The notes beneath the pieces are model-generated. The model had not been told where the DNA came from and ran no database searches. It saw only the letters and a program-made list of their open reading frames with translations. Both the position numbers and the translations under genes were made by a program. Shown here piece after piece: positions 40,703 through 50,137 of a stretch of DNA of 64,000 nt. Origin of the DNA: Pirellulales bacterium. GTDB lineage: Bacteria; Planctomycetota; Planctomycetia; Pirellulales; JAICIG01. The DNA lies in contig JAICLL010000007.1 in NCBI GenBank assembly GCA_025927475.1, positions 1 to 64,000 on the forward strand, in the 5' to 3' direction. How positions within the stretch are numbered: the stretch's first letter is position 1; every line of letters starts with the position of its first letter.

Positions 40703-42931
40703 CTATCTTGGCGTCCCACCGGAGGCCGCCTGCGCCGGAGCATCGGTCTGGGCGGCGTCGGCGCTCGGCGGAAGAAACTGCGCCAATACTTCGACCAGCT
40801 TTTCGCGACTCAGTGGCTTCACCACGTGCCGATTGAAACCTTTGGAAAGCGCGGTTTGCACGTCGTCGGCCTGACCGTAGCCGGTCACCGCCACCAGGTA
40901 CGTGCGCTCGCCCAAATTGCGGCGCACATATTCGGCGACCTCATAACCGTCGATGCCGGGCAGCCCGATATCGACAAGCGCGGCCACCGGACTGAACCGC
41001 TCGATGGCCAAAAGGCCTTCCTGGCCACTGGCGGCCGCGTAGACGGCAAATCCATGCGACTCGAGCAGCGCCCGCAGCATATCGCGATTATCGGCGTCGT
41101 CTTCCACGATGACCACCAGTTTATCGCGGACGAACAAGGGCGGGGCGTCGCTCGCCGGCGCGGGCAGTTGCGGCGGGGCCGCCGCCCGCGGCAGCCGGAT
41201 GATGAATTCGCTGCCCTTGCCGGCGCCCGCGCTGTACGCGTTCACCTCGCCTCCATGAAGCTCGGCGATCGATCGCACGACCGACAGACCCACGCCCATA
41301 CCACCCGAAGAGCGCGCCAGCGTCTGGTGGCTTTGCACGAACAAATCAAACACGCTGCTCAATAGGTGCGGTTCGATGCCGACGCCGGTGTCTTTGACGC
41401 GGATCACCACGTGGCCGTCGTCGGGCTGCATCGAGAGCACGATGCGGCCCTCGGCCGGCGTGTATTTGATGGCGTTGTCCAACAAGTTGGCCAGCGCCTG
41501 TTGCAGGCGCGATGCATCGCCATTGACCCACAGCGGCGCCGCGGCGATTTCGCGCAAGAACTGATACCGGCCCTCTTCCAGTCGCTTCTGCACCGCCGCG
41601 ACCGCGTCGGGCACGATGTCGCTCAAGTTAAACACCCGCTTTTGCATCGGCATCTTGTTCTGCGTCATGCGTGACACATCGAGTAATTCATCGAGCAGCT
41701 TGGCCATGTGCGCCCCTTGCCGTTCGATGATTTCATAGGCGTGCCGCGCGGTGTCGGGCGGCACATTAGGGAGCCGCATCAAAGCCGTTGCGCTGACGAT
41801 GGCGTTGAGCGGGTTGCGCAGTTCGTGGGAGAGCATGGCCAGGAATTGGTCGCGCCGCCGCACCGCATCCGACAACTGCGACTCGGCCTTTTTCAGCGCG
41901 GTGACATCCACTAGCGTCAGCACCGCGCCGCGCGTCGATTTGCGCGCCTGGTAGGGCAAGATGCGCAGCAAATAGTGCAAGCCGTGCCGGTCGCGCACCT
42001 CGCGCTGTCGCGGCTCGCCGCTGCGGAGCACCTCTTCCACGTCGTCTACCAGCCGCTCGTGCAAGATGTTGTGCACGAAGCTGTCAATCCGGCGCCCCAC
42101 GTCTTGCTGCAACAGGTTGAAAGCGGCGCTGACCGACGGAGTGAACTTGCGGATGCGCAGGTCGTGATCGAGGAAGATGGTGCCGATGTCGGTGGCCGCC
42201 AGCAACGCCTCCAGGTCGGCGTGCAGCTCCATCAACTCGCTGATTTTCTTCTGGTACTCAGCATTGACCGTATACAGCTCTTCGTTGACCGAGTGCAGTT
42301 CTTCGTTGGTGCTTTGCAGTTCCTCGTTCGAAGCCACCAGCTCTTCATTGGTGGCCTGCAACTCTTCGTTGCTCGTCTCCACCTCTTCGATGGTGGCCTG
42401 CAAATTCTCTTTGGTGTAACGCAGCTCCGCTTCGAGGCCTTCGATGCGGTCGCGCGACAGCCGCCGCACATCGGAATCGAGCGGCGGGGCCGAGTCGCCT
42501 TCCGCCGGCTGCTCGGCCATCTCGACGATCGCCACAAACATTTGCAGCGCTTTGCTCCGCTGGTTCTCGACCGGCTCGACGCTCACGCGATACAGTCCCT
42601 CGCGCCCGCCGACCGACAGCCGGATGCCCGAATAGTGCACGGGCTGCCAATCTTTTTGGGCCTTTTGCAGGGCGCCGGTGACGGCGGCTTTGAGGTCGTC
42701 GTCGAGCAGGTCGAGGGCGTCGCTGCTGGGCCGCCCCGGCTTGATGCGCAAAAACTGCTGCGCATCGCCGAAGACATGCAATAGCTCGCGGCCTTCGCTG
42801 ATCAGCAGCCCCGGCGGCATATAGCGCGACAAGAGCGCGTCGTATGCTCCCACCAATGACACGTCGGGAAATGCCCGGGACGATGGCGACGGCAGCAGCG
42901 GCGGCCGGCGCAGCGCTTCGGGAGAGCGCAA
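40703..42931 (-). CDS. PAS-histidine kinase-receiver hybrid, 3' part of a broken CheB/CheR hybrid gene
   Basis: A 742-residue open frame. After about 35 residues at the junction come a PAS-like domain ([20 protein letters not shown]), a long coiled coil (about 145-215; repeated [20 protein letters not shown]), a second PAS ([18 protein letters not shown]), and the dimerisation H-box [13 protein letters not shown]. The ATPase boxes [17 protein letters not shown] and [11 protein letters not shown] follow. A C-terminal receiver has [13 protein letters not shown], phosphoacceptor Asp in [11 protein letters not shown], and KPLSREKL. Normally this arrangement follows CheB and CheR in one chain. Here its 5' end overlaps the CheB-CheR frame in another frame, so it may be untranslated or need a new start. 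Confidence 0.8.
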
Positions 42932-44253
42932 CTGCCCCCGCGCGTCGGCGGACGATCGAGCTTCGTGAACGGCGCGTCTTTGATGATGTTATGCGGCGCA
43001 AACACAATCATCTGCCGCAGGTCTTGGCGGACGTGATAGCCGTCGGCCTTCCGCTGAAAGTACCGCTGTCGCCACTCCTCGCGGATATCGACCAAGGCTT
43101 GCTCGCTAAACACGCCCAGGCTCGCTGCTTCGAGCGAAACCCGATGCGCGTCGGTGGCGAACACTTTGGCGCTGATGGGCCGCGGTTCCTGCTCGAGCAG
43201 GCTGTGCAGCAACATCGCCACGCTATAAGCCTCCTCGCCGGTGGCGCAGCCTGCCACCCAGACACGGATCTCTTGGTCGCTCGGAACGCGTCGCACGAGT
43301 TCGGGCAGCACCTCGTGTTCGAGCTTTTCAAACGCCGCCGGATCGCGGAAAAAGCGCGTCACTCCGATCAGCAGGTCTTTGTAAAGCGCGTCGAGCTCGC
43401 CGGCGTTGTTACGCAGCCGCTCGGTGTATTCCCGCAGGTCTTCAATGCGGTTCATCGACAACCGGCGATGGATGCGCCGCCCCACCGTGGTGCTTTTGTA
43501 ATGCGAGAAATCGAGTCCATGCTCCTGGTTCAGCAGGTCAAAAATAGGGGTAAACTCCAGTTGCTCGGCCGCCGGCTGGTCGTCGGAATGAACACGCTGC
43601 GCGAGGTTGGCCACGTGGTTCATCAGCGCCTGGGGGATCTGGTCGGGTGGCAGCACCAGGTCGACCACTCCGGTGTCGATGGCGTTAACCGGCATGCCGT
43701 CGAATTTGGCGGTATTGAGACTTTCACAGATCACCAACCCGCCGGCCGCGTGGATGTCGCGAATGCCGCGCGACCCGTCGCTGCCGCTGCCCGACAAGAC
43801 GACCCCCACGGCCGCGGCGCCCGCCTCCTGCGCCAACGAGCGGAAGAAATGGTCGATGGGCAACGCCAGACCTTGGTTGGGATCTTTATCGGTCAGCAGA
43901 AGTTTCCGCTGCGAAATGATCATGTCCTTCCGCGGCGGAATGAGATAGATGTGGTTGGGCTGAACCTCCATCTCGTGCTCGGCGCGGCGGATGGGAATCT
44001 CGGTATAACGCGCCAGAAGTTCGTCCATGAAGCTTTTGAAGTCGGGCGAGAGGTGCTGAATGAGCACGAAGGCCATGCCCGGCTTCGGCGGCATGTTGCG
44101 AAACATCTGCTCGAGCGATTCCAGCCCACCGGCCGAGGCGCCGATGCCCACGATATGGAAAGCAACCCCGTCGCCGTCTTCTGGAGCGACCGCGGGAGAC
44201 TCGGGGGAAAGGTCCGGCAAGACCGACCAATCGAGATCCGGATTCATCGGCAA
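42802..44253 (-). CDS. CheB-CheR fusion, truncated by frameshift/deletion
   Basis: A 483-residue frame. A CheB methylesterase domain (about 30-215) shows VGIGASAGGLESLEQMF (Ser), LIQHLSPDFKSFMDELL (His) and VVLSGSGSDGSRGI (Asp). A CheR domain (from about 225) includes TSFFRD-type GVTRFFRDPAAFEKLE, the SAM-binding VWVAGCATGEEAYSVAML and KVFATDAHRVSLEAASLG. At IIKDAPFTKLD the family continues with a LI.CRN.LIYF motif, but here the frame runs into Arg/Cys-rich nonsense and stops. That matches a deletion with frameshift near 42960. The CheR active region is therefore incomplete. No receiver is fused to CheB, as usual for this hybrid class. Confidence 0.78.
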   Translation of the reverse strand: MPMNPDLDWSVLPDLSPESPAVAPEDGDGVAFHIVGIGASAGGLESLEQMFRNMPPKPGMAFVLIQHLSPDFKSFMDELLARYTEIPIRRAEHEMEVQPNHIYLIPPRKDMIISQRKLLLTDKDPNQGLALPIDHFFRSLAQEAGAAAVGVVLSGSGSDGSRGIRDIHAAGGLVICESLNTAKFDGMPVNAIDTGVVDLVLPPDQIPQALMNHVANLAQRVHSDDQPAAEQLEFTPIFDLLNQEHGLDFSHYKSTTVGRRIHRRLSMNRIEDLREYTERLRNNAGELDALYKDLLIGVTRFFRDPAAFEKLEHEVLPELVRRVPSDQEIRVWVAGCATGEEAYSVAMLLHSLLEQEPRPISAKVFATDAHRVSLEAASLGVFSEQALVDIREEWRQRYFQRKADGYHVRQDLRQMIVFAPHNIIKDAPFTKLDRPPTRGGSCALPKRCAGRRCCRRHRPGHFPTCHWWEHTTRSCRAICRRGC

Positions 44254-44536: not shown

Positions 44537-45055
44537 TCAGTCTCCCACGCCGATGTCGGTGCAGAAGCATTCGTAAATCAAATCCACCTCACGCGCGTAA
44601 TGGCTCCGAATTGCCGCGAGCAAATCCGCGGCGTGTTGACGAATGGACGAAAAATCGGCGAGAGCCTCGGCGGGTTCGACCGAACGCGCCAGCGCCGACC
44701 CCATTTCGAGCAACTTGGCGTGCTCGATGCGCAACTGTTCGACTCGATAACCGAGCTCGGGTTGCGCTGCCGCCAGTTCGCGGCAAAGCCCCTCAGCGCC
44801 TTCGGCGGATTCGACGTGCGCGCGAAGGTAGTCGCGCACGGGGCGCAGCTCGTGCCCCACCCGACCCGACCAGGGGCCTTCACGTCCTGGGGCGGGCGAA
44901 GCAAGCGCCGCTTCCAACCGGTGCATCGCCTCGAGCAGGAAATCGTGTTCGCCGCGGGTGCGCCGAGACAGCCAATCGCGCTGTGCCGCCACGCCCGCAC
45001 CGGCTTGGCCTGCTTCACCGTGATGAGCGCCGTGCTTCATGGCCACCACCCTCAT
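44537..45055 (-). CDS. Hemerythrin-like helical-bundle protein
   Basis: A 172-residue, four-helix-type protein with spaced His/Glu residues resembling HHE hemerythrins: RGEHDFLLEAMHRLEAAL, PVRDYLRAHVESAEGAEGL, QLRIEHAKLLEMGSALA, and HYAREVDLIYECF at the end. These could hold a di-iron or oxygen/NO-sensing centre, but the ligand set is not complete enough to be sure. It may be only a helical accessory protein. Its ATG overlaps the stop of the HPF-sigma gene (ATGA), so it is translationally coupled to that gene. This suggests a joint role, perhaps sensing or anti-sigma function. Confidence 0.55.
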   Translation of the reverse strand: MRVVAMKHGAHHGEAGQAGAGVAAQRDWLSRRTRGEHDFLLEAMHRLEAALASPAPGREGPWSGRVGHELRPVRDYLRAHVESAEGAEGLCRELAAAQPELGYRVEQLRIEHAKLLEMGSALARSVEPAEALADFSSIRQHAADLLAAIRSHYAREVDLIYECFCTDIGVGD

Positions 45056-46098
45056 TGCTCCGCGCCTGCCGTGACTGCCGCCGGCTCCCGGCTTTCACCC
45101 AACCGGGCGGCCTCATCTGACTGGCCGGCTTCGCCCCGCAACAGGTCTTTCAATGCCCGACGCGCAGATTCGATGTCGGCCCTCACCTCCGATTCGGGTC
45201 GATCTTGAATCATCGCAATCTCCGCCGCATCGAAGCCTTCCAGAAAGAATTGAATGAACGCGTCGCGCCGCGCCCCCGGCATCGTTCGCAGCAACCGGTC
45301 GATCCGACTTTGTTGCTCGAGCTCGCCCAAATCTTCCCAGGGCTGGCCCCCCTCGTCGCCCGGCAACAACTGCTCCATGGTCATGGCCGAGGAGGTGGCA
45401 TCGTCGCCTTCGCGGTCCATCGCGACGGCCACGTGGCGCCCCGCCAGCCGCACGGGCCGAGCCTCGTTGCGCAGCTTGGTCAGAAAATCGTCCATCAGGT
45501 CCATCAACCAGACGTCGAGCTCCCAACCGGGCGGGCGATCGTCAAACTCTTCCCATGCTCGCAGCACGACTTCGCCCACCGCGTCGCCGGCGGTGACCTC
45601 GCCCCGTCCGAGGGCGCCTTGCTGCTCCAGCAGTCGCAGTTCGCGGCGCGCGTGCTCTTTCAGCGGTTTCAAGATCGGCAGCAGCAACTCAACAAACGCT
45701 TCGCGGCGGCGCTCGCGGCGGTCTTGCGCAAGCAAGGGTCCCGCCGCCGCCAGTTCGTCTCGACGGCGATTCTTGCGGCGATACACCCAGTCGTTCCGCA
45801 GGCGCGCACGATGCCGCCTGATTTCCGTCGCCAAGAGATCGACCAGGCGATCGACCACCGAGCGATGGTCGGCATCGCTGGCGCTGGCCACCAGCGTGTG
45901 CGACGGCAATTGCAGCACCGTGCGGCCTTCATAACCACCGCGAGCCCGGTGCCAGTAAATCGAGATCGTCAGTTCGTGCAGCCCCTCGGGGAAGGTCGTG
46001 AGAAGGCGCTCCAAGCGGGGCGCCTTCTTGCTCCAGTACGCCTCAATCTCGGTTTTGATCAGATCATCGCAATCGTGGTATACCCATCGGGTGCGCAT
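45052..46098 (-). CDS. HPF/RaiA-like domain fused to a sigma-70-like module
   Basis: A 348-residue protein with two recognisable halves. Residues 1-115 match the ribosome hibernation/S30AE pattern: WSKKAPRLERLLTTFPEGLH, an ELTISIYWHR strand, TVLQLPSHTLVASASDADHR, and DLLATEIRRHRARLRNDW followed by a basic tail. Residues about 135-320 look like a divergent sigma-70/ECF protein. The region-2-like helices are VGEVVLRAWEEFDDRPPGWE and DVWLMDLMDDFLTKLRNE. The region-4-like part is RTMPGARRDAFIQFFLEGFD, AAEIAMIQDRPESEVRADIE and SARRALKDLL. It lies in a run with three Hsp20 genes and a hemerythrin-like gene. It may link ribosome status or heat stress to transcription; this is inference. Confidence 0.72.
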   Translation of the reverse strand: MRTRWVYHDCDDLIKTEIEAYWSKKAPRLERLLTTFPEGLHELTISIYWHRARGGYEGRTVLQLPSHTLVASASDADHRSVVDRLVDLLATEIRRHRARLRNDWVYRRKNRRRDELAAAGPLLAQDRRERRREAFVELLLPILKPLKEHARRELRLLEQQGALGRGEVTAGDAVGEVVLRAWEEFDDRPPGWELDVWLMDLMDDFLTKLRNEARPVRLAGRHVAVAMDREGDDATSSAMTMEQLLPGDEGGQPWEDLGELEQQSRIDRLLRTMPGARRDAFIQFFLEGFDAAEIAMIQDRPESEVRADIESARRALKDLLRGEAGQSDEAARLGESREPAAVTAGAEQ

Positions 46099-46174: not shown

Positions 46175-46654
46175 TCAGTTCGACACGGTGACCGGAATTC
46201 GCTTGGGCGCTGCCTCCGGCGATTTGGCGATCTTCACCGTCAGCACCCCGTGAGCGTAATCGGCCGTCACCTGGTCGGCGTCGATTCCCGCCGGCAGCGA
46301 GATCTCGCGCCGGAACGACCCGAAGCGACGCTCGGAGTGGCGGACACCGTTGCCTTGCTTCTCTTCCGCTTCTTTCTTTTCACCGGAGAGCACCAGCACA
46401 TTGCCGGCCACCGAGATGTTGATGTCATCGGGCTTGACGCCGGGAACCTCCGCCCGCACCATGATGGCGTCGTCCGTTTCGCGGACGTCGAGCGACGGGT
46501 TCCACGGGCTGGAGAAGCCCCACTCGGGCCAGGCGAACGGTTCGCGCAAGAACGAATCGAACAGCCGGTCGACTTCGCGGCGAAACTCCGACAAGGGAGC
46601 GAGATCGCCACGTTGAGTTTCTTGATGTTTGTTCCTCCAAGGAATTAAGGACAT
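46175..46654 (-). CDS. Small heat-shock protein, Hsp20/alpha-crystallin family
   Basis: An ATP-independent holdase chaperone of 159 residues. The alpha-crystallin domain is typical: WNPSLDVRETDDAIMVRAEV, PGVKPDDINISVAGNVLVLS, GEKK, then RHSERRFGSFRREISLP and DYAHGVLTVKIAKSPE. The C-terminal RIPVTV is an I-x-V oligomerisation motif. The start at 46654 has a perfect AAGGAGGT ribosome site, so the in-frame ATG seven codons upstream is rejected. It is the third Hsp20 gene of the run and lies 76 nt before the HPF-sigma gene. Confidence 0.93.
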   Translation of the reverse strand: MSLIPWRNKHQETQRGDLAPLSEFRREVDRLFDSFLREPFAWPEWGFSSPWNPSLDVRETDDAIMVRAEVPGVKPDDINISVAGNVLVLSGEKKEAEEKQGNGVRHSERRFGSFRREISLPAGIDADQVTADYAHGVLTVKIAKSPEAAPKRIPVTVSN

Positions 46655-46696
46655 GGTGTACCTCCTTCTTTCCAACGTATCGTCAGTGCCTTTTGG

Positions 46697-47107
46697 TCAG
46701 CGTGTTTTTACTTTAATCTTCCGCGGCTTGGCGGCTTCGACTTTGGGCAGGTGAAGCGTCAGTACGCCGTCTTTGTATTCGGCGTGAATCTTGGCGGCGT
46801 CGACCGACTCGCTCACGGTAAAGCTGCGGTAGTAATCGCCGACGCCGTATTCTCGCAGTAGGAAATGGGTCGCGTCGTCCTGGCGCGGTGCGGCGGGGGC
46901 GTGAATCATCAGTTCTCCATTCTCGAATTGAATATCGATCTCACTGCCCGCGGCGCCTGGAACATCGGCTCGCACCAGCAGTTCATCGTTTTTTTCGAGG
47001 ATATCGACGTTGGGCCGGTAAAAGCGGCCGCTACGGGTGCGCTCGGAAGCTGAGCGAGACGGCTCAACTTGCTTCTGCACCTCGCCCGTGATGGTTTCGG
47101 TAGGCAT
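46697..47107 (-). CDS. Small heat-shock protein, Hsp20 family
   Basis: A 136-residue Hsp20 with the crystallin core FYRPNVDILEKNDELLVRAD, VPGAAGSEIDIQFENGELMI, then YRSFTVSESVDAAKIHAEYK and DGVLTLHLPKVEAAKPRKI. The N-terminal arm is short and Ser/Arg/Glu-rich. The C-terminal end (PRKIKVKTR) closely resembles that of the neighbour at 47138-47584 (PRRIQVKTA), so these two are likely sister paralogues, with the third more distant. An AAAGGAGA ribosome site precedes the ATG. It is the middle gene of the Hsp20 run. Confidence 0.93.
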   Translation of the reverse strand: MPTETITGEVQKQVEPSRSASERTRSGRFYRPNVDILEKNDELLVRADVPGAAGSEIDIQFENGELMIHAPAAPRQDDATHFLLREYGVGDYYRSFTVSESVDAAKIHAEYKDGVLTLHLPKVEAAKPRKIKVKTR

Positions 47108-47137: not shown

Positions 47138-47584
47138 TCAAGCGGTTTTGACCTGAATTCTGCGCGGCTTGGCGGCCTCGGCTTTGGGAAGCGTGATGAG
47201 CAGCACCCCGTCGGCCAGCTTGGCCTCGATCTTGTTGACATTGACTTCGATGGGCAACCGCAGAGCGCGATAGAATTCGCCCACGCCCCGTTCGCGGCGG
47301 TGATACACGGCGTTCTGTTCTTCGAGATCCATCCGTTTGCCTTGGATGACCAACTCCCCGCCGACAACCGAGATATCGACGTCGCCGACTTTCAAGCCGG
47401 GCAGTTCGGCCTCGACGTACAACTCCTCGCCTCGCTCCCAGACGTTCAGCGCCGGGAATCCGCAACCCGCCACGTGACGCCCGGTGTCCCCTGCACCCCC
47501 GCCGAAGAAATCGGTAAACAGGCGATCCACCTCGCCGCGCAACTGGGTCATCGGATGCGCTCCGTTCGACTGCACCCTGGACAT
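47138..47584 (-). CDS. Small heat-shock protein, Hsp20 family, first of three
   Basis: A 148-residue Hsp20. The crystallin domain reads FPALNVWERGEELYVEAELP, GLKVGDVDISVVGGELVIQG, RRERGVGEFYRALRLPIEVN and ADGVLLITLPKAEAAKPRRI. An N-terminal helix TQLRGEVDRLFTDFFGG matches the Hsp20 pattern. The ATG at 47584 has GCGGAGG 8 nt upstream, while the open frame continuing 38 codons upstream is rejected. It is the promoter-proximal gene of the run, divergent from an ECF sigma gene. Confidence 0.93.
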   Translation of the reverse strand: MSRVQSNGAHPMTQLRGEVDRLFTDFFGGGAGDTGRHVAGCGFPALNVWERGEELYVEAELPGLKVGDVDISVVGGELVIQGKRMDLEEQNAVYHRRERGVGEFYRALRLPIEVNVNKIEAKLADGVLLITLPKAEAAKPRRIQVKTA

Positions 47585-47903
47585 GGTTCGATCCTCCGCT
47601 TCAATGGAAACATTGTTTAAGACATGGATGCGTTTGCCTTGCAACCGACAGCCAAAGGCAGGCACCGCCAGACAGCTGAAGCAAAACAGATGCCGCATAC
47701 TGCTGACGATTCACAGGCCATTGCGGGATAAAATGTTACGTCAAACAGTCCACGCCACGCCCCGCCTCTGATGGGCGTCAAATTGGCAGGGCATCGCCGC
47801 GTCTCGCCGAAGACGCTGTCGCACAGCGGTGGGCGCTCGCATTTGACAGCCGCGGCGACGCCCCGGATGATGGAACTTTTGCCTCCCTGCTCGCGTCGAA
47901 GGT
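47585..47903. promoter_or_regulatory. Divergent control region between the hsp20 run and the ECF sigma gene
   Basis: About 320 nt without a supported gene, holding promoters for both directions. On the minus strand, the hsp20 leader close to the start has a palindrome AAACAATGTTT and a small stem-loop CAATG-TTTC-CATTG just before the GGAGG site. A small leader hairpin could act as a thermosensor, but it is short and unproven. TTGCAA upstream could serve as a -35 box. No CIRCE-type repeat was found. Confidence 0.35.
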
Positions 47904-48473
47904 ATGATTGCCGTGGCGGCTGACGACCAGCTTATCGAAGCTGCCCTGAAGGGCGACTCGGCCGCCTTTGGCTGCCTGGTGCGAAAGTACCAGGACCGGC
48001 TGTATAACACCATGCTGCATGTGGTCGGCTCGCCCGACGACGCCCGCGACGTGGTGCAAGACGCCTTTGTCAAAGCCTTCCTGAAGTTAGAGACGTTTCG
48101 GCGTTCGAGCGCGTTTTACACCTGGCTCTATCGGATTGCTTTTAACACGGCGATGAGCGGGGGGCGGCGCCGGCGGCCCGTGCAGTCGCTCGACCAGCAG
48201 CGCGAGGCGGGGCAAGAACCGCTCGACGCGGGCGCCACGCCAAGCGACCGGCTGGAACAAGAAGAGTTGGCCGAACAGGTCCGCGCCGCCCTGGACACGC
48301 TCAGCGACGAACACCGCACGGTGGTCGTGCTGCGCGAAGTCGACGGCCGCGGATACGATGAGATTGCCGAAATCCTGGAGGTGCCGGTGGGCACGGTGCG
48401 CAGCCGGCTTCACCGGGCAAGGATGCAATTGCGAGAACAACTCAAAGCAACGTTGCAGCCCGATCAAATATGA
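47904..48473 (+). CDS. ECF RNA polymerase sigma factor (RpoE/SigW-like)
   Basis: A 189-residue group-4 sigma factor. Region 2 is VRKYQDRLYNTMLHVVGSPD, then DARDVVQDAFVKAFLKLETF and the SAFYTWLYRIAFNTAMS promoter-melting helix. Region 4 is LSDEHRTVVVLREVDGRGYD followed by the HTH EIAEILEVPVGTVRSRLHRA. The gene after it starts inside its last codons (ATGA overlap) and encodes a membrane anti-sigma factor, so the pair forms a classic envelope-stress switch. It is divergent from the Hsp20 run, which suggests, without proof, shared stress control. Confidence 0.93.
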   Translation: MIAVAADDQLIEAALKGDSAAFGCLVRKYQDRLYNTMLHVVGSPDDARDVVQDAFVKAFLKLETFRRSSAFYTWLYRIAFNTAMSGGRRRRPVQSLDQQREAGQEPLDAGATPSDRLEQEELAEQVRAALDTLSDEHRTVVVLREVDGRGYDEIAEILEVPVGTVRSRLHRARMQLREQLKATLQPDQI

Positions 48474-50137
48474 ACCATCCTGCCGACGAAGAACTGCTGA
48501 GCGCTTATCTCGACGGCGAATTGGCCGACGATGAGCGGGCGCGCGTCGAGCAGTTGCTGAGCGAGCTGCCCGAAAGCCGGCAATTGCTGGAAGAGTTGCG
48601 GGCGGTGAAACAGCGGTTGCAGTCGCTGCCCGCGGCGCGCTTGGGCGAAGACTTTGCCGAGCGCGTGCTGCGGCAGGCGGAGCGTGAGATGCTGACGGAA
48701 GGGTTCAGGGTTCAGGGTTCAGGGTTCAGCAATCTGTCCTCTGGACAGGATTGTGAAATTGGATCATCGTCCGCGTCGCAATCAAAAATCGGAAATCCAA
48801 AATCCAAAATCGGCCGCCATCGACGCTCCGTGGTTTGGGCCGCGCTGGCACTGGCGGCGGGGCTGTTGGTGATGCTTTTCGATCGAGACCGGCACGATCG
48901 CCGCGCCGAAAAGCAGGTGGCCATGGCGCCCCAGGGCGCCGACAACGATAACCGGAGCGGCGCGCTGCCGAGAAATGCTGAAATCGGGGCGGCGCCGCTG
49001 GGTGGCCCCGCGACCGACGAGGCCGAGCGAACGCCGCGAGAACTGAGCGACCTGCGTGCGGAGCCGCAAAGCTCGGAAGCCGACGAAAACCAAGCAGCGA
49101 CAGCCGCACCTGCGGAAGACAAATCGTCGTCCGCGCGCCGCCGCATGAAGCAACTCGATGAAACCGTCGGCGAGCGAACGGGCAAAGGCAATCGGCGAGC
49201 ACGTCAGGCAGGCGGCGAGCCGATCAACCAGCGGTTTGCGTTCCTCGGCGACTCGGGCGGCGAACCGCCGCTGGTCGACGACCAGACCTTGGTCGTTTGG
49301 TGCGAGCTATCGCCCGACGCCCCGTCTGAGGAAAACTTCTCGCAGTTGCTCGCGCAACAAAACATTGCCTGGCAACCTGCCAGCGATGCGGAACAAGGCG
49401 CCTCGCATGCCTTGGGGCGAGCTGGTCGATCGGGACAGCCGGAAGCCTTTTTCGCTCAAAACCAAGCAGGAAGAACGATGTCGGTCGATCCGGCCAAACT
49501 GGTCGAAACCTTGAAACGGCGCGGCGACCAGCAGGCGACCCGAGAGCCCAAGGCGCCCGCGCTGGAATCGCTTCAATCGCCCGGCGCGCAGATGGTTTTG
49601 GTCGAAGCCACCGATACGCAGGTCGAAGCGGTGCTCGAAGCCATGGACCAGGATCGCCAGACCTATCGAACGGTGGAAGTCGAACCGGCGCCACAGGCGC
49701 CGCGACAGCAATCGCTGGCTCAGTATTCGCGCTCGGCGCGCCATTTGAAAAAAGAAGAAGCCGAACGCGCGGGCCGAATGTCGGTGCAAAACCTGGCCGC
49801 CGATCCACGGCTGCCCCAAGGACGCGCGGTGCGGCTCCAGTTGCAAGCCGGGCAAGCGGCGGCAGCCAAAAAAACCGACGAGCCTGCTGCGCCGCCCCCG
49901 GCCTCGGGAACCGAAAAAAAGGAGAAGCTTGCCAGGTCAGCGCCCGCCCCCGCCGCATCCCCTGCCCTGTCTTCGGAGGTTCGCGAGCCGCAGTCAGCCG
50001 CAGGCGCGCGGCGATCCGAGCCGGTCTACCGTGTGCTTTTCGTCCTGGTTCCGCCCATTCAGGCGGATGCCAAACCTGCCGCGGCCGCTCCCGCGAAAGA
50101 GCAAGCACCGCCCCGCGAAGAGCCAAAGAACCCGTGA
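48470..50137 (+). CDS. Membrane anti-sigma factor with a repeat-derived insert
   Basis: A 555-residue protein. Residues 1-75 resemble an anti-sigma N-terminal domain without zinc ligands (EELLSAYLDGELADDERARV, EQLLSELPESRQLLEELRAV). One transmembrane span lies at about 119-136 (VVWAALALAAGLLVMLF). The long periplasmic part is Ala/Pro/Gln-rich, with two short ordered segments near LVVWCELSPDAPSEENFSQL and MVLVEATDTQVEAVLEAMDQ. Residues about 78-117, just before the span, are encoded by mini-repeats (FRVQGSGFSN, SKIGNPKSKIG). It should hold the upstream ECF factor at the membrane until proteolysis. Confidence 0.82.
   Translation: MNHPADEELLSAYLDGELADDERARVEQLLSELPESRQLLEELRAVKQRLQSLPAARLGEDFAERVLRQAEREMLTEGFRVQGSGFSNLSSGQDCEIGSSSASQSKIGNPKSKIGRHRRSVVWAALALAAGLLVMLFDRDRHDRRAEKQVAMAPQGADNDNRSGALPRNAEIGAAPLGGPATDEAERTPRELSDLRAEPQSSEADENQAATAAPAEDKSSSARRRMKQLDETVGERTGKGNRRARQAGGEPINQRFAFLGDSGGEPPLVDDQTLVVWCELSPDAPSEENFSQLLAQQNIAWQPASDAEQGASHALGRAGRSGQPEAFFAQNQAGRTMSVDPAKLVETLKRRGDQQATREPKAPALESLQSPGAQMVLVEATDTQVEAVLEAMDQDRQTYRTVEVEPAPQAPRQQSLAQYSRSARHLKKEEAERAGRMSVQNLAADPRLPQGRAVRLQLQAGQAAAAKKTDEPAAPPPASGTEKKEKLARSAPAPAASPALSSEVREPQSAAGARRSEPVYRVLFVLVPPIQADAKPAAAAPAKEQAPPREEPKNP
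48701..48812 (+). repeat. Mini-repeats inside the anti-sigma coding sequence
   Basis: Two low-complexity blocks lie in frame. The first is GGGTTCAGGGTTCAGGGTTC and a short continuation at 48701-48729. The second is an AATC-rich block with CAAAATC units (AAATCCAAAATCCAAAATC) at 48780-48812. The first block matches the intergenic mini-repeat at 38339-38366. Confidence 0.7.

Follow-up and report, generated by a model that had tools for sequence, protein, structure and literature searches.

Known hibernation factors act on ribosomes. Hibernation of RNA polymerase has been described separately, in the form of inactive dimers or octamers (PMC11102965). HPF fusions with other ribosome-acting modules exist, as in HibA with its CBS module (PMC13324472), and degenerate sigma domains are known from PhyR; the combination of the two was not found in the literature searched. 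A sequence-only reading of the locus described here had proposed a single protein with an HPF/RaiA (S30AE) domain and a sigma-70-like module, and knew of no characterised example. We likewise found no description of an S30AE/HPF-sigma architecture in that literature, and the family may overlap with the planctomycete groups ECF87-89.

The gene lies in the window, the whole stretch of 64,000 nucleotides of Pirellulales DNA that was analysed. Its open reading frame runs on the minus strand from an ATG at 46098 to a stop codon at 45054-45052, and GGGGAGG, about 10 bases 5' of the ATG, is a plausible Shine-Dalgarno sequence. The gene and the parts of its product are as follows:

45052..46098, minus strand: HPF-sigma fusion gene, 348 aa (open reading frame and translation; equally long homologs in other genomes).
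45787..46098, minus strand: HPF/RaiA (S30AE) domain, residues 1-104 (Pfam across members, PDB profile search, AlphaFold2 order E-H-E-E-E-H, Foldseek).
45715..45867, minus strand: continuous long helix, residues 78-128, made up of HPF helix 2, its basic stretch included, and extending into the sigma-like part (AlphaFold2; basic charge kept in most members).
45457..45705, minus strand: sigma2-like domain, residues 132-214, with the R/K-P...W-L signature (hhalign to ECFs, AlphaFold2 helices, residue and charge analysis, invariance).
45325..45456, minus strand: variable, low-confidence sigma2-sigma4 linker, residues 215-258 (AlphaFold2 pLDDT <50 at 219-238; pairwise identity 0.21).
45139..45324, minus strand: sigma4-like helix-turn-helix, residues 259-320, with an acidic recognition helix (PF08281 above cut-off; hhalign to ECFs, 2e-18; helix charge).

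Taken alone, the window protein suggests both halves, with the HPF half not yet firm. It falls below the cut-off for Pfam S30AE (18.9 bits, cut-off 23.7, E=0.0026) and passes that for Sigma70_r4_2 (PF08281) over residues 265-316 (27.7 bits, cut-off 25.7), and a PDB search returns HPF at 1e-4 and SigH at 0.008. ECF profiles cover residues 165-319 at 4e-8, and the curated ECF cut-off is missed (TIGR02937, 25 bits against 42.9). The family speaks more plainly. S30AE (PF02482) is matched by 24 of 26 members at E<=1 (best 2e-11) and NCBIfam yfiA by 11 (best 1e-9), and a profile built from the 18 full-length members retrieves an HPF in the PDB (8uu4) at 5e-12 over profile positions 9-103. The AlphaFold2 model places strands at 2-8, 42-50, 55-63 and 68-75 and helices at 12-35 and 78-128, and its Foldseek search returns HPF at 1.5e-4, with TM scores by target of up to 0.90 (V. 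cholerae HPF).

The charge of this half varies within the family. Over residues 78-118 most members have a net positive charge (+7 in the window protein), but L022 has -2. Both L022 and L029, which are full-length, have net acidic HPF domains (-8 and -10, respectively), which suggests that these two have lost ribosome binding; it may therefore not be general. The window's genome contains two further S30AE genes, one of them strong (65.6 bits), so that the HPF-sigma protein is an accessory copy. A third S30AE protein of this genome, L074 (G000:C145), is extremely basic, at about +20 over the domain.

The C-terminal half is related to ECF sigma factors by several measures. Sigma70_r4_2 is matched by 18/26 members (best 2e-11), as is the generic ECF model of NCBIfam (18/26, best 6.5e-15), and the full-length family profile finds an ECF sigma (7qh5) at 8.5e-17 over profile positions 145-334 and SigH at 3.9e-14 in the PDB. 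Pfam sigma region 2 is weak (5/26 members, best 0.006), and sigma2, as the weakest part by Pfam, was tested separately by hhalign. Alone, it aligned with planctomycete ECFs at 1.1e-9 in the long form of the family and at 2.5e-9 in the short, sigma4-less form, against 0.044 (probability 1%) for HPF as a negative control. Since Pfam region 2 barely sees the family, ECF catalogues may have missed it. Work by Wiegand in 2020 reportedly dealt with planctomycete ECFs that carry N-terminal extensions.

AlphaFold2, run on a 26-row alignment, gave a pLDDT of 84 and a pTM of 0.49, so that the domains are reliable and their relative placement is not. The sigma half shows sigma2-like helices at 132-159, 170-183 and 194-211, a disordered linker and helix-turn-helix helices within 259-335. 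Foldseek returned SigH at 3.7e-5, with sigma H, sigmaE-type factors and HPFs as top matches, and essentially all of the top 50 PDB matches were sigma-family or HPF. Family profiles, the predicted model and Foldseek thus agree on the two halves: the C-terminal half shares ancestry with ECF sigma factors and the N-terminal half with HPF. The bounds of the sequence-only reading, 1-115 for HPF and 135-320 for sigma regions 2 and 4, lie close to those found here, and the S30AE match, the sigma region 2 and 4 matches and the helix-turn-helix that it had named as decisive are all present. Its alternative, a helical extension that only resembles a sigma factor, fails on ancestry, where profiles, fold and conservation count against it; on function it may hold.

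Surveying the fusion taxonomically, as had also been suggested, we found the full-length form in 11 of 297 genomes of the order (Pirellulales). Among genomes drawn evenly from the phylum, about nine more, belonging to five other families, carry it. A full-length relative in the same family shares 66% identity, and others occur in several further families of the order; the N-terminal part of the G386 homolog is hidden by an assembly gap. Across the Planctomycetota genomes sampled the distribution is patchy. The survey profile included sigma4 and matched 352 of 392 genomes, its C-terminal part recognising ordinary ECFs; only matches covering the HPF part were counted, and L027, L040 and L041, which are ECFs and not family members, were left out. 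A whole-collection scan with the single protein, which needs near-exact peptides, found one relative and is uninformative on phyla outside Planctomycetota. The HPF-sigma fusion is real, and is neither isolated nor an artefactual join. In three members of another family (L030, L034 and L036), the frame that leads into the gene from upstream resembles a conserved upstream gene read out of frame.

A shorter form with HPF and sigma2 occurs in nine of the 297 genomes, and the window's genome and G001 each carry both forms, which align over HPF and sigma2 at 1.6e-21. This sister family of about 245 aa comprises L011 (G000:C293, 958-1797, minus strand), L008, L023, L025, L026, L039, L042 and L058, and has its own conserved C-terminal end, WLE.LIDPSV...E.eNis..R. 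In Foldseek, its AlphaFold2 model (pLDDT 85.7) matches HPFs best (4.7e-6); among sigma factors, region 2 of E. coli sigmaE comes first, at a weak E-value of 0.1 (probability 0.99). A second, separate form without sigma4, of 262-267 aa (L037 and L038), comes from another family of the phylum and points to repeated loss of sigma4; in the tree sigma4 is absent in two separate places. The HPF-sigma modules split from all 18 ECFs with support of 100/99, in a tree that holds these 18 ECFs only and has long branches, and this separation is consistent with one origin.

To characterise the sigma half, the 26 members (18 full-length and 8 sigma4-less) were aligned with 18 ECFs, of which 17 were the family profile's own ECF matches in the phylum and one came from the window. 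The region-2.2 Gln, whose equivalent in E. coli sigma70 supports core binding, is present in 18/18 ECFs and in 0/26 family members, where the position is acidic in 23; with its loss from all 26, affinity for core could be lost. The region-2.3 Asn is found in 16/18 ECFs against 0/26. Across regions 2.3-2.4 (residues 194-214) the mean net charge is -1.5 in the long and -2.6 in the short form, against +4.2 in ECFs, and the sigma4 recognition helix averages -2.2 against +2.3, its Ser-Arg being mostly gone in the family. The region 2.2 helix is more acidic than in ECFs, at a mean of -3.6 in both forms against -1.5; D172 is D or E in 26/26 members and E176 is acidic in 24/26. Sigma2 is further marked by an insertion of about 10 residues and the signature R/K-P-x7-W-L, in which P189 and W197 are invariant across the 26 sequences. 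With a mean pairwise identity of 0.32-0.33 against 0.26, the sigma modules are conserved at least as well as HPF. The DNA-facing chemistry is lost, and the fold and the acidic face that meets the beta' clamp in ECFs are retained. With its charge reversed and its Gln lost, the sigma module probably does not work as a sigma factor that reads promoters, and is better taken as a mimic.

The gene sits in a one-directional series of Hsp20, Hsp20, Hsp20, HPF-sigma and hemerythrin genes, followed by a CheB/CheR-PAS-histidine kinase gene:

47138..47698, minus strand: Hsp20 small heat-shock protein, third of three upstream (PF00011, 2.6e-21).
46697..47107, minus strand: Hsp20 small heat-shock protein, second (PF00011, 3.8e-19).
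46175..46675, minus strand: Hsp20 small heat-shock protein, first (PF00011, 8e-25).
44537..45055, minus strand: hemerythrin-domain protein (PF01814, 8.7e-6), whose start codon overlaps with the stop codon of HPF-sigma in ATGA.
40703..44253, minus strand: CheB-CheR-PAS-histidine kinase-receiver gene in two frames, both aligning to a single 1350-aa CheB/CheR/PAS/HK/REC protein beside the L082 homolog.

Three of the genome's four Hsp20 matches lie directly upstream of HPF-sigma, and the ATGA overlap makes it probable that HPF-sigma and the hemerythrin are co-translated; in G001 a hemerythrin gene again directly follows the homolog. The two overlapping CheB/CheR frames correspond to residues 19-420 (frame of 483 aa) and 500-1323 (frame of 742 aa) of the L082 protein, so the window copy is either frameshifted or damaged, or reflects a sequencing error; intact copies are found elsewhere. 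The arrangement recurs in another family, where the homolog (L082; G127, 31% identical) has three Hsp20 genes on one side and a 1350-aa CheB/CheR/PAS/kinase gene on the other. Other homologs have HtrA, Hsp20, a DisA-type cyclase or Dps nearby, and several of the loci read have no stress gene.

We are now able to propose, tentatively, that the protein is an accessory stress or dormancy factor, in which a ribosome-directed HPF domain is joined to a sigma mimic that is blind to promoters and whose most likely contact is RNA polymerase core. As with other HPF/RaiA proteins, the HPF domain would be expected in idle ribosomes, at the 30S decoding region. The C-terminal half, as an ECF-sigma-derived mimic unable to read promoters, would most likely dock through its acidic region-2.2 face on the basic beta' clamp helices. 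Docking would keep part of the core RNA polymerase from sigma and DNA, or tether it to idle ribosomes, during a stress that would also see the Hsp20 and hemerythrin genes expressed. In summary, the mimic may dock on RNA polymerase core or on an anti-sigma. Its binding partner, be it RNA polymerase core, an anti-sigma or another molecule, is the least certain point of the proposal; the sigma-like domain of PhyR is a precedent for a degenerate sigma fold that serves an anti-sigma.

Several observations bear on this model. Passages of a review of ECF sigma factors (PMC8103513) give sigma2.2-beta' as the main core contact of sigma, and describe an acidic sigma2 motif that contacts the positive beta' clamp helices and is essential for holoenzyme formation. 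The retention of an acidic region 2.2 (D172, E176), with the DNA-facing charge reversed, therefore counts for clamp docking, and the relatives that keep sigma2 and lose sigma4 are as expected if the contact between sigma2 and its partner is essential. Three Hsp20 genes, hemerythrin and the other stress neighbours count for a role in stress or dormancy, whereas the loci lacking a stress gene count against it. A more specific form of the proposal, possible at best, is that one protein rests both machines, its HPF domain holding idle ribosomes and its sigma mimic occupying the beta' clamp, so coupling hibernation to RNA polymerase sequestration.

Two serious rivals have to be weighed against this proposal. 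The first, which we consider doubtful, is a PhyR-like decoy: the sigma-like half would bind an anti-sigma and free a real ECF sigma, the HPF half would report idle ribosomes, and the decoy would be free or hidden according to ribosome binding. The Pfam PhyR_sigma-like model matches 14/26 members (best 5e-8; under cut-off for the window protein alone), the family profile finds PhyR-type response regulators in the PDB (9by5, 2.6e-9; 3n0r, 3.8e-8), and passages of PMC8103513 credit PhyR with a correct ECF structure in which the parts that bind promoter and core are degenerate, which fits the lost charge and Gln. Sigma70_r4_2 nevertheless fits better (2e-11), and sigma4 is wholly absent in some relatives. 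Divergent from the Hsp20 operon, at 47904-50137 on the plus strand, lie a gene for an ECF sigma and one for a 555-aa partner whose N-terminus looks anti-sigma-like by eye. This pair is a possible partner of the mimic, but was not seen beside the other homologs at the loci read, and ECFs are plentiful in these genomes.

The second rival, somewhat less probable again, keeps the protein on the ribosome. The sigma-derived half would be a protein-protein or dimerisation module, unconnected with transcription, that either stands in for the C-terminal domain of long HPF when 100S particles form or recruits a client. Other HPF fusions, the loss of the DNA-facing surfaces, the dispensability of sigma4 in some relatives and the long helix connecting the two halves all speak for it. 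However, the acidic region-2.2 residues are nearly always kept, the sigma fold is conserved at least as well as HPF, and the net negative charge of the sigma half disfavours contact with rRNA.

That the protein is an active ECF sigma, regulated by its HPF extension and released from ribosomes as translation resumes or stops, has a very small probability. Its ECF ancestry is clear, and passages of PMC8103513 report planctomycete ECFs with N-terminal extensions (original groups ECF87-89) whose content those passages do not describe. Nonetheless, the residue and charge analysis disfavours this reading and makes it unlikely, since the recognition helix and region 2.4 are acidic and both the region-2.3 Asn and the region-2.2 Gln are missing throughout, and curated ECF cut-offs are not reached. 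A resemblance by chance, or an artefact of assembly or of a frameshift, can appeal to the window protein's sub-threshold S30AE score, but is ruled out by homologs of the same architecture in many separately assembled genomes and by independent evidence from profiles and fold.

The protein may link the translation and transcription machines in some Planctomycetota. With a conserved HPF protein that has a sigma-derived half, the idea that one molecule serves some bacteria to shut down or store both machines becomes directly testable. If so, the sigma fold would have one more role, next to initiation and the titration of an anti-sigma by PhyR, and there would be a concrete candidate for a phylum whose stress physiology is little worked out.

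Compared with known systems, the N-terminal 104 residues share with short HPF/RaiA (S30AE, PF02482) the beta-alpha-beta-beta-beta-alpha order and, in most members, a basic helix 2, but the HPF-sigma protein is a divergent, accessory copy with a sigma-derived C-terminal half. Long HPF likewise joins an HPF domain to a C-terminal module, which in HPF-sigma is sigma2/sigma4 and not a dimerisation domain; the window protein has no Pfam match to PF16321, the dimerisation domain of long HPF. In HibA, the archaeal HPF-CBS fusion (PMC13324472), the second module is N-terminal and CBS, to which the window protein has no Pfam match. ECF sigma factors, including planctomycete ECFs with N-terminal extensions, share the order and fold of sigma2 and sigma4 and the helix-turn-helix, whereas the HPF-sigma family has lost the promoter-facing residues and charge, has the sigma2 insertion and the R/K-P...W-L signature, and misses the ECF cut-offs. 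PhyR, an anti-anti-sigma response regulator, also carries a degenerate sigma-like domain within a larger protein; HPF-sigma differs in having HPF, in sometimes losing sigma4 and in lacking a receiver domain (no Pfam match to Response_reg in the window protein). Finally, NusG acts on translating ribosomes and HPF on idle ones. Although its fold is unrelated to HPF-sigma, NusG, which binds the clamp helices (PMC12364105), resembles it in the bridge that is predicted for HPF-sigma, from the RNA polymerase clamp helices to the ribosome.
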